From NCBI RefSeq assembly GCF_000813725.1, contig NZ_JWLD01000020.1:1-64000 (forward strand): a stretch of DNA of 64,000 bases, written 5' to 3'. Of the stretch, positions 33,567-35,857 are shown one piece after another (the stretch's first letter is position 1; every line of letters begins with the position of its first letter). The stretch comes from Leisingera sp. ANG-Vp (lineage in GTDB: Bacteria; Pseudomonadota; Alphaproteobacteria; Rhodobacterales; Rhodobacteraceae). The notes beneath the pieces are model-generated. The model ran no database searches, had not been told where the DNA came from, and was given only the letters and a program-made list of their open reading frames with translations. Both the position numbers and the translations under genes were made by a program.

Positions 33567-34396
33567 CTGAGCGCCGCCGCGCGGGTGGCTGCATCCACGT
33601 CTGGGCGGTGGCCGAACCAGCGCTCGAAACCCGGAACCGCCTGGTGCAGCAGCATGCCAAGCCCGTCGACCACGGTGCAGCCGGCCTCCTCAGCCGCTTG
33701 CAGCAGGTCGGTTTTCAGAGGCGCATAGATCAGGTCGGTCACCACGGCGCTGCGCTGCAGTCCGTCCAGCGGCACCCGCAGGCGGGGCTTACCAACCATG
33801 CCCAGCGAGGTGGTGTTCACAATCAGAGCGCCTTCTTCAATAATATTGCCGGCCTGGACCCAGTCAGACACTTTCACCCGGCTGCCAAAATCGCTCTGCA
33901 GCTGCTCGGCGCGGTCGCGGGTGCGGTTGGTCAGCAGAATCTCGGGCACGCCGGCCTCCAGCAGCGAGGCCACCACCGCGCGGCAGGCGCCGCCGGCGCC
34001 CAGCACCACGGCCGGCCCGGACTGCGGTTCCCACAGCGGCGCGCCCTGATGCAGGTTGGTGATGAAACCATAGCCGTCGGTATTGTCGGCCATGATGGTG
34101 CCGTCCTTGCGGAAGATCAGCGTATTGGCCGCACCGATCAGCTTGGCCCGGTCGGTGACCTTGTCGGCAATCTCCATCACCGCTTCCTTGTGCGGGATGG
34201 TCACGTTGGCGCCGACAAATCCCATCTTCGGCATCATCCGGATGGTGTCCGCCAGATCCTCCGGCTCCACATGCATCGGCACATAATGCCCTTTGATGCC
34301 ATGCGTGTTCAGCCAGTGGCGTTGCAGCTGCGGGGATTTGGAATGTGCAACCGGACAGCCGATAACGCCGGCGAGCGGGATTTTTGCTTCTGTCAT
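33563..34396 (-). CDS. aroE: Shikimate dehydrogenase (NADP+)
   Basis: AroE reduces 3-dehydroshikimate to shikimate in aromatic amino acid synthesis. The 277-residue protein has GVIGCPVAHSKSPQLQRHWL, the catalytic Lys in NVTIPHKEAV, the NADP-binding VLGAGGACRAVVASLL and a C-terminal GLGMLLHQAVPGFERWFG. It overlaps maf by four bases on one side and coaE on the other. Confidence 0.96.
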   Translation of the reverse strand: MTEAKIPLAGVIGCPVAHSKSPQLQRHWLNTHGIKGHYVPMHVEPEDLADTIRMMPKMGFVGANVTIPHKEAVMEIADKVTDRAKLIGAANTLIFRKDGTIMADNTDGYGFITNLHQGAPLWEPQSGPAVVLGAGGACRAVVASLLEAGVPEILLTNRTRDRAEQLQSDFGSRVKVSDWVQAGNIIEEGALIVNTTSLGMVGKPRLRVPLDGLQRSAVVTDLIYAPLKTDLLQAAEEAGCTVVDGLGMLLHQAVPGFERWFGHRPDVDAATRAAALR

Positions 34397-34992
34397 TGCT
34401 CGATTACCCCTTGCAGGCCTAAGTAACTGATAAGCTCCATCAGCGGCAATCCCAAGACATTAAAGTAGCTTCCGTCAATGGAGGCGAACAGACGCACGCC
34501 TTCCTCCTCCAGCTTATAGGCGCCCACCGCGTTGCGGATGCTGTCCCAGTTCCGGGTCACATAATCCTGCAGATAAGCATCCGAGCATTTCCGCATCACC
34601 AGCCGGACCTGTCCCACATGGCGCCAAATAGGTTCACCATCACGGTAGATCACTGCCGCCGACAGCAGCATATGCCGCTTGCCGCACATCTCCTTGAGCT
34701 GCGCCAGCGCAACCTCTTCACTGGCTGGTTTGGACAGGAGTTTCCCTTCAAAATCAAGTACCTGGTCACATCCCAGAACCAGTTTACCCGGGTGTCTGCC
34801 ACTGATCTTGCGCGCCTTGGCTTCGGCCAGCGCATCGGCGATATCCCGAGGCGGCGCCTGTTCGGCCAAAAGCGAAGCCTTGATCGCGTCTTCATCCAGC
34901 CGCGGGACGTCAGTGGCAAATTCTATGCCGGCCTGGCGCAGAAGATGCGCCCGGATTTCGGAACCGGAAGCCAGCACTATGTGGGCAGTCAT
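34393..34992 (-). CDS. maf: Maf family nucleotide pyrophosphatase (YceF-like)
   Basis: Maf proteins hydrolyse non-canonical nucleoside triphosphates to monophosphates. The 199-residue protein starts IVLASGSEIRAHLLRQAGI and has LVLGCDQVLDFEGKLLSKP. The CDQV form of the central motif is like YceF (7-methyl-GTP pyrophosphatase) rather than the dTTP/UTP-specific Maf. It is the first gene of the minus operon reading away from the origin region. Confidence 0.9.
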   Translation of the reverse strand: MTAHIVLASGSEIRAHLLRQAGIEFATDVPRLDEDAIKASLLAEQAPPRDIADALAEAKARKISGRHPGKLVLGCDQVLDFEGKLLSKPASEEVALAQLKEMCGKRHMLLSAAVIYRDGEPIWRHVGQVRLVMRKCSDAYLQDYVTRNWDSIRNAVGAYKLEEEGVRLFASIDGSYFNVLGLPLMELISYLGLQGVIEQ

Positions 34993-35202
34993 GTGGAAAA
35001 CCCCGTGGGAAAGACGCAGATCGTTTCAGGACGTTTTGTATGGTTTTCCGCGCTCAAGTAAAGACTCCAGGGGTTGACGCAAATCTCAGGATTCAGCCGG
35101 CTGAGTCGTCCTTTGTGAGTCAGGATAACTTTGAATCCGTGGATATGCCGGCTCTCCCCGGATCATCCCTGTCTTATCCCCAAGCACGGATAGGTAAACA
35201 CA

Positions 35203-35236
35203 TTCTTAACGCACCTTATTTCTAAGGCGTTAAGAA
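35203..35236. repeat. Inverted repeat inside oriC
   Basis: Outer arms TTCTTAACGC (35203-35212) and its exact complement (35227-35236) enclose an inner pair CCTTA (35214-35218) with TAAGG (35223-35227). The two pairings overlap by one base. It lies between DnaA-box-like sites and could be a protein-binding palindrome. Confidence 0.7.
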
Positions 35237-35348
35237 AATTTCCACGACTCCGGTCCCATCCAAGCTGGAATCTTATCCCTGCTGGGGATAAGCGAAGGAG
35301 GACTCACTTATCCACCGGAATCCACGCACACTACAAAAACATCATCCT

Positions 35349-35372
35349 TCTAATAATCATTTAATTATTAGA
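35349..35372. repeat. AT-rich palindrome, candidate unwinding element
   Basis: TCTAATAAT (35349-35357) pairs exactly with ATTATTAGA (35364-35372) across a 6-nt loop. The stretch 35325-35372 is the most AT-rich of the region. It is followed by repeated AGATCAG words before hemJ. Confidence 0.6.
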
Positions 35373-35401
35373 GAGATCAGATCAGTTCGGGAGATCAGCC
35401 C

Positions 35402-35857
35402 ATGGACCTGAGCGATGTCATGTTCGCGCTCTACCCATATGCCAAGTCGCTGCACATCATGGCTGTCCTCAGCTGGATGGCGGGTCTCTTCTATCTTCCC
35501 CGTCTGTTCGTGTATCACGTGGAGCAGGCTGAGAATGTGCAGGAAGCCGTACCGATCTTCCTGCAGATGGAAGAGAAGCTTCTCAGGATCATCATGCGCC
35601 CAGCCATGTATGTCTCCTGGGCAGCGGGGCTGTTCATCATTCTAACGCCCGGAATCGTCGACTGGAGCTACATCTGGCCCTGGACCAAGGGAGTCTCGGT
35701 GATTGCCATGACCTGGTTCCATCACTGGCTGCTGTTCCGCTACCGAGATTTCAAAGAAGGCAGGAATTCTCTCACCGGCCGGCAGTTCCGGATGATGAAC
35801 GAGGTCCCCACCGTGCTGATGCTGGTGATTGTGGTTTCAGTCATCTTCAAATTCTAA
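35402..35857 (+). CDS. hemJ: Protoporphyrinogen IX oxidase HemJ
   Basis: HemJ (UPF0093) is the membrane-bound, haem-containing enzyme that oxidises protoporphyrinogen IX in bacteria lacking HemY or HemG. The 151-residue protein has four membrane segments and the conserved SLHIMAVLSWMAGLFYLPRLFVYH with its His residues, plus WFHHWLLFRYRDF. A GGGAG-like site lies before the ATG. It is the first gene to the right of the origin region. Confidence 0.93.
   Translation: MDLSDVMFALYPYAKSLHIMAVLSWMAGLFYLPRLFVYHVEQAENVQEAVPIFLQMEEKLLRIIMRPAMYVSWAAGLFIILTPGIVDWSYIWPWTKGVSVIAMTWFHHWLLFRYRDFKEGRNSLTGRQFRMMNEVPTVLMLVIVVSVIFKF

Follow-up and report, generated by a model that had tools for sequence, protein, structure and literature searches.

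The presumed chromosome origin (oriC) of Leisingera sp. ANG-Vp contains nine GANTC sites, the target sequence of the methylase CcrM, within 260 bp (35063-35322). The cluster is real and strong, is conserved across the genus and has evolved more than once at this locus; oriC is best read as working like a methylation-marked origin. All nine sites fall within the 409 bp that separate maf from hemJ, and the next best 260-bp stretch of the window (the whole stretch of DNA analysed, 64 kb) holds five. An earlier sequence-only reading had placed the sites at 35063, 35090, 35103, 35117, 35133, 35246, 35268, 35301 and 35318, and all nine coordinates were exact. Its expectation of about one site is bracketed by the values of ~0.35 and 1.7 per 260 bp calculated from the genome rate and from the composition of the gap, respectively. 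In 2000 dinucleotide-preserving shuffles of the gap (34993-35401) the mean count was 2.7, and none of the shuffles (0/2000) reached nine. Of 16 palindromes of the XYNyx type, GANTC alone was strongly enriched in the gap, the remaining 15 showing no comparable excess.

The background was taken from a genome sample composed of the window and 20 further stretches (371,213 bases, ~7% of 5.15 Mb), in which 503 GANTC were found, or 1.36 per kb. Outside oriC, no 260-bp window of this sample had more than five. The count per 260 bp that the earlier reading had proposed as a check thus leaves the oriC cluster unique within the sampled ~7% of the genome. Intergenic sequences were represented by 114 gaps of at least 120 bp, defined with a simple ORF caller in the sampled stretches. 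The gaps scored as non-origin contained 51 GANTC against a shuffled expectation of 99.8, four of these 51 being oriC sites in a split-off piece, and every other intergenic gap in the sample had at most two. Outside oriC, intergenic GANTC in the gaps of this simple ORF caller therefore occurs at about half of the shuffled expectation. This deficit runs in the opposite direction to the general intergenic GANTC excess reported for Alphaproteobacteria in passages of PMC3973325.

The gap (34993..35401, 48% GC) separates the divergent genes maf (34393..34992, minus strand; TIGR00172 above its cut-off) and hemJ (35402..35857, plus strand; best model TIGR00701, below its cut-off). The encoded HemJ shares 97% identity with its counterpart in Leisingera sp. 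ANG-M1. The rho gene adjoins hemJ, and ParA-like and ParB genes are located 6 kb from the gap. From 35-37 kb onwards the cumulative GC skew climbs steadily, with a slightly lower point at 16-18 kb. Five DnaA-box-like 9-mers were found in the gap, each with at most two mismatches to TTATCCACA, which we take to be the DnaA-box consensus: TTATCCTGA (35120..35128, minus strand), ATATCCACG (35138..35146, minus), TTATCCCCA twice (35174..35182, plus, and 35283..35291, minus), and TTATCCACC (35308..35316, plus). To their right, a conserved CTACAAAAACATCATCC block and an AT-rich stretch (35331..35372, plus strand) are likely to form the unwinding element. The skew turn, the boxes, the AT-rich element, the maf/hemJ/rho neighbourhood and the ParA-like/ParB genes are all features by which alphaproteobacterial chromosome origins are recognized, and the gap is presumed on these features to be the chromosome origin. 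A protein-motif search of the sampled 371 kb found no dnaA. The poorly conserved middle of oriC contains an inverted repeat, TTCTTAACGC...GCGTTAAGAA (35203-35236), which is kept in part of the genus only; its TTAAC/GTTAA halves resemble what we assume to be CtrA half-sites.

The same gap between maf and hemJ recurs in all 21 genomes of the genus Leisingera (our own plus 20 more), where it carries five to nine GANTC; with two exceptions, each of the nine sites is preserved in 17 or more of these genomes. The best kept is the third site (GAGTC, 35103..35107), which is intact in 21/21 and whose context, TGAGTCG, fits the extended GcrA motif YGAKTCG. The eighth (GACTC, 35301..35305) and ninth (GAATC, 35318..35322) are intact in 20/21 each and lie 2 bp and 1 bp, respectively, from the DnaA-box-like 9-mer at 35308-35316 that they enclose. 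Three sites are intact in 19/21: the first (GACTC, 35063..35067), the second (GATTC, 35090..35094) and the seventh (GAATC, 35268..35272). The fourth (GAGTC, 35117..35121), which overlaps the box-like 35120-35128, is intact in 17/21. The two exceptions are the fifth (GAATC, 35133..35137; 8/21), which abuts the box-like 35138-35146, and the sixth (GACTC, 35246..35250; 11/21). The 12-bp palindrome TCAGCCGGCTGA (35093..35104) described in the earlier reading is real. However, two GANTC overlap its ends rather than flanking it from outside; they are the sites at 35090 and 35103, the former being the left end of an 18-bp near-palindrome (35090-35107). The palindrome is perfect in only 4/21 genomes of the genus, whereas these two sites are intact in 19/21 and 21/21.

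For each reference sequence separately, the conservation of GA.TC at its sites was measured against circularly shifted versions of that site set. In the genus of G034, 1/375 shifts (reference L195) and 2/368 shifts (L192) reached the observed conservation, and in the genus of G098 the counts were 1/395 (L203) and 0/395 (L199). In Leisingera, 4/391 shifts did so with L111 as the reference; with the window's own sequence, a reference that includes the two poorly kept sites, the result was weak (39/393). Among motifs occurring at least four times, GANTC ranked 2nd of 26 (L111), 5th of 26 (L002), 2nd of 22 (L192) and 1st of 25 (L199) in mean conservation. The GANTC sites of the genera of G034 and G098 stand as conserved islands amid divergent sequence. 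Because GA.TC outperforms its circular shifts in three lineages, although only weakly when the window's own sequence is the reference, selection is likely to act on the GANTC sites themselves. Selection confined to GA.TC would predict a central base more variable than other centres, and this was rejected: N varies in 3/32 conserved GANTC against 57/718 other windows in five lineages, which is no excess.

Other Rhodobacteraceae were surveyed in two draws. The first comprised 120 genomes from 120 genera, 102 of which (our own included) gave a HemJ match. Of the other 101 matches, 89 were taken; the 12 omitted were weak, distant or truncated. From these 89, a further 11 were dropped, three (L033, L083 and L091) for the absence of maf beside hemJ and eight for a gap outside 300-600 bp, leaving 78 genera; one of these eight, L056, has 10 GANTC in a gap of 1264 bp. 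The second draw (395 genomes, matches in 282 genera) added 80 new genera from the matches listed, of which 79 were usable; since these matches were ordered by HemJ similarity, this sample leans to nearer relatives. In the 157 other genera together, the gap held 237 GANTC against 268.5 by shuffling, and five genera had six or more; no cluster of this size was present in the 79 genera of the second draw. The conservation in related origins that the earlier reading had looked for is found within the genus (21/21) but is not general in other genera: 54 of the 157 have no GANTC in the gap. When 40 short motifs were compared across the origins of the 78 genera, GANTC came first in variance-to-mean ratio (3.13), ahead of CGNCG (2.75). 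Among named neighbours (80 loci, 79 with maf) the counts formed a gradient, with two to five GANTC in Tritonibacter and Phaeobacter, one to three in Ruegeria except for two with none, and zero to two in Roseovarius; Epibacterium ulvae (10) and one uncultured relative (12) stood apart from it.

On a tree of HemJ and Maf from 256 distinct loci, the state of having six or more GANTC needed eight changes. These can be read as seven gains, two of them weak, and one loss. The gains were placed in Leisingera, in the E. ulvae pair, in the genera of G034 and G098, in a pair within the genus of G041, and at L070 and L087, the last two being the weakest (p 0.004 and p 0.038, respectively); the single loss was placed at L095. 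The clusters are general in two of these genera, with 8-11 sites in 4/4 genomes of the genus of G034 and 11-14 sites in 8/8 of the genus of G098. Of 18 genomes searched in the genus of G041, 16 matched, and L209 (nine sites) and L210 (eight sites) differ from the other 14, which have zero to four. As only these two of the 16 are clustered, the gain looks recent. An inverted CGACTCATGAGTCG element is made up of two of these sites.

The survey was extended to the class with 86 genomes, which gave 70 HemJ matches, 68 of them outside Rhodobacteraceae. Forty loci were taken, and four were dropped, L341 for too long a gap and L344, L361 and L364 because a flanking gene was not found, leaving 36 loci, one per family. 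The gap measured here was that from hemE to the divergent neighbour (a regulator of pyruvate phosphate dikinase, or maf). These presumed origin gaps contained 119 GANTC against 70.5 expected; 7/36 had six or more and 2/36 had none, compared with 5/157 and 54/157 in Rhodobacteraceae (Fisher's exact test: p = 0.002 and p = 0.0004, respectively). Origin GANTC thus occurs with moderate frequency in the class and is scarce in Rhodobacteraceae. The comparison suggests that Rhodobacteraceae lost their origin sites and that Leisingera and a few other lineages regained them. The general intergenic excess of GANTC may contribute to the class signal, part of which would then not be specific to origins.

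The enzyme that would methylate the sites is encoded in the genome. The single RAMA-domain match of our own genome lies in a 367-residue frame with what we take to be the methylase motifs named DPPY and FFGTG. The solved CcrM of C. crescentus matched it over 351/367 residues (E 3.8e-167). The NCBIfam CcrM model NF050803 also matched (E 1.1e-194), but with 646 bits against a cut-off of 830. The methylase and RAMA domains are both intact. The nine sites are CcrM targets by sequence, as the earlier reading had it, and a full-length CcrM is available in the genome to act on them. Methylation of adenine (m6A) at GANTC was measured in Phaeobacter gallaeciensis strains and in Sulfitobacter, according to passages of PMC5583230 and PMC9025767, respectively; the literature searched contained no such measurement for Leisingera. 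CcrM was found in 115/120 genera and GcrA in all 120, our own genome included, and both are present in each of the five genera of the first draw that have a cluster. The presence or absence of CcrM or GcrA was therefore rejected as the cause of the presence or absence of clusters, both proteins being near-universal. The SeqA model PF03925 had no match in our own genome (99.65% complete) and matched the E. coli control, and SeqA is stated in part of PMC5172544 to occur in gamma-proteobacteria only. Separately, five genera gave no CcrM match, and the three of them that could be measured (L044, L045 and L081, from the genera of G025, G100 and G013) have 2.8, 3.4 and 4.9 GANTC per kb near the origin, which places them in the top five of the 19-kb loci. 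It is as if the loss of CcrM in these genera had ended an avoidance of GANTC.

We give an even chance to the proposal that the Leisingera oriC, by virtue of its nine sites, is a methylation-marked origin. CcrM would methylate the nine oriC sites. As oriC is copied first in the cell cycle, all nine would become hemimethylated together and, with CcrM expected only late, would remain in that state for much of the cycle, until the enzyme is made. A fresh origin would be rendered less able to fire again, either by a protein sensing or shielding hemimethylated GANTC or by DnaA itself at the sites touching its boxes. The mark would then act as a once-per-cycle gate, as the GATC clusters of E. coli do, with another methylase and another reader. 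Clustering of the sites could let a protein that needs several of them, as SeqA of E. coli does, read the hemimethylated state. It is plausible, as the earlier reading had suggested, that methylation marks newly replicated Leisingera origins; its further suggestion, a control of DnaA access, would be one possible consequence. About 80% of Caulobacter cells are hemimethylated at sites close to the origin (in a passage of PMC3973325). Proteins known for sensing or shielding GANTC are GcrA and MucR, the latter of which bars CcrM from certain sites in both Caulobacter and S. meliloti (in part of PMC5172544).

Four of the nine Leisingera sites lie within 3 bp of a DnaA-box-like 9-mer, where 1.6 would be expected (p = 0.057), which is only a hint of a special relation between GANTC and DnaA boxes in this genus. 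Apposition to DnaA boxes as a general rule was rejected, as it was not significant in the other clusters. Across nine origins, adjacent sites were 10-14 bp apart in 14 cases against 7.6 expected (p = 0.013). Helical spacing of the sites is also only a hint, since this distance class was picked after looking and the 79 further genera offered no new cluster for a repeat.

Among the closest known systems is the oriC of E. coli, which has 11 GATC sites, Dam methylase and SeqA (in a passage of PMC10073500). In both origins the target of a solitary adenine methylase is densely clustered within oriC, and that of E. coli is hemimethylated after firing, as that of Leisingera would be. Unlike in E. coli, the sites in Leisingera are GANTC for CcrM and not GATC for Dam, CcrM is expected only late in the cycle, and the cluster is an exception within its family, the Rhodobacteraceae. 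As SeqA was not found in the genome, the Leisingera oriC falls outside the Dam/SeqA type. The origin of Caulobacter, Cori, is similar in being a DnaA-dependent alphaproteobacterial chromosome origin with CcrM sites; it has several GANTC motifs (according to part of PMC3973325), and Leisingera has nine in 260 bp. However, Caulobacter without CcrM has a normal DNA content (same source), and C. crescentus mutants of ccrM or gcrA have a normal origin-to-terminus ratio (in a passage of PMC3885167). By analogy, these CcrM-loss data would count against the gating model.

The origins of repABC replicons are GANTC-rich, and CcrM methylation has been proposed to time and limit their firing (in passages of PMC6090056 and PMC11514494). 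In A. tumefaciens, ori2 over-initiates when CcrM is overproduced, with hemimethylation proposed as a brake, whereas CcrM depletion has no obvious effect on the DnaA-dependent ori1 (in part of PMC11514494). The analogy with ori2 would be in favour of the gating model and that with ori1 against it; unlike the Leisingera oriC, ori2 and the repABC origins are RepC origins of secondary replicons. In the roseobacter Dinoroseobacter shibae, the ori and ter regions are enriched in GANTC (in a passage of PMC6473078, citing Tomasch 2018). This resembles Leisingera in that more GANTC occurs near the origin of the chromosome, but the D. shibae statement concerns regions and not a cluster inside oriC. In the literature searched, which left most subscription papers outside, no report of a GANTC cluster in the oriC of Leisingera or Phaeobacter was found, and PMC5583230 was the only paper to contain both Leisingera and GANTC.

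Three other explanations were weighed against a methylation-marked origin. The sites could serve transcription, with GcrA and sigma70 reading methylated GANTC at the maf/hemJ promoters or at the promoter of a transcript entering oriC. The ubiquity of GcrA in the 120 genera agrees with this, as do its preference for fully methylated or hemimethylated GANTC promoters (in part of PMC8116508) and the proposal that it activates only promoters bearing YGAKTCG (in a passage of PMC7987155). The invariant GAGTC at 35103 lies in such a motif, and the genus of G098 has seven YGAKTCG against 1.5-2.0 expected, with a mild excess also in L133 (4 vs 1.4) and L210 (3 vs 1.1). Leisingera itself, however, has one YGAKTCG where 1.1 are expected, which is no excess even if one site could still serve, and arrays of GcrA sites were rejected as a general rule on this ground. 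Two promoters would also need fewer than nine sites spread over 260 bp, and a simple consensus scan, which other promoter types escape, found no sigma70-like promoter in 34900-35450. We consider a role in transcription unlikely. Chance build-up in one ancestor, with the set having no function and being kept by descent and by overlap with other conserved origin elements, seems to us improbable to a similar degree. The absence of clusters from most related origins, the poor upkeep of two of the nine sites and the weak excess over shifted windows from the window's own sequence would all fit it. Set against these are a count far beyond chance, clusters that arose several times at the same locus, and the conserved site islands in the divergent sequence of the genera of G034 and G098.

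GANTC might also be a by-product of a longer recognition sequence of some other origin protein, for example a repeated GAGTCG/CGACTC. The recurrence of GAGTCG/CGACTC in the genus of G098 and the conservation of N, which is as great as that of other central positions, speak for this explanation. Within each cluster, however, N and the flanks vary from site to site, the centre being C or G in five of the Leisingera sites and A or T in four. Across the genus, the centre is C, T or G at 35301 (GATTC or GAGTC in most relatives) and A or T at 35318 (GATTC in two relatives). Together with the fact that GANTC is the one strongly enriched motif of 16 tested in the gap, this makes a longer motif the least probable of the three, and we regard it as very unlikely. 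A broader form of the preferred reading, a methylation-marked origin, is that origin gating by CcrM evolved several times in Rhodobacteraceae from GANTC-poor origins, as a convergent counterpart of Dam/SeqA with a reader other than SeqA; this we put forward tentatively, as possible but rather doubtful.

Whether CcrM controls the initiation of chromosome replication has been answered with no for Caulobacter and proposed for a secondary origin of Agrobacterium. A genus with a conserved, dense cluster of CcrM sites at its main origin, beside relatives free of such a cluster, is a better place to ask. If the gating model is true, the enterobacterial marking of new origins would have been reinvented with other parts. 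The apparently recent gain in L209 and L210, set against 14 congeners with zero to four sites, provides a natural before-and-after pair in which to seek the reader.

Two further observations were made on the surveyed loci. One GANTC near -300 from hemJ is common to many of the origins with few sites (Ruegeria, Tritonibacter and Phaeobacter) and corresponds approximately to the site at 35103; of 88 YGAKTCG sites in 253 loci, nine of them from the genus Leisingera, 29 fall in the 20-bp bin at -300. This GANTC is perhaps an ancestral GcrA site. In addition, L118, titled Nocardioides marinus, has a Leisingera-like origin with a HemJ 83% identical, and one and the same match was obtained with L185, titled Flavobacteriia, and with L186, whose title is Roseobacter, on contigs equal in length and position. 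These three look like mislabelled records.
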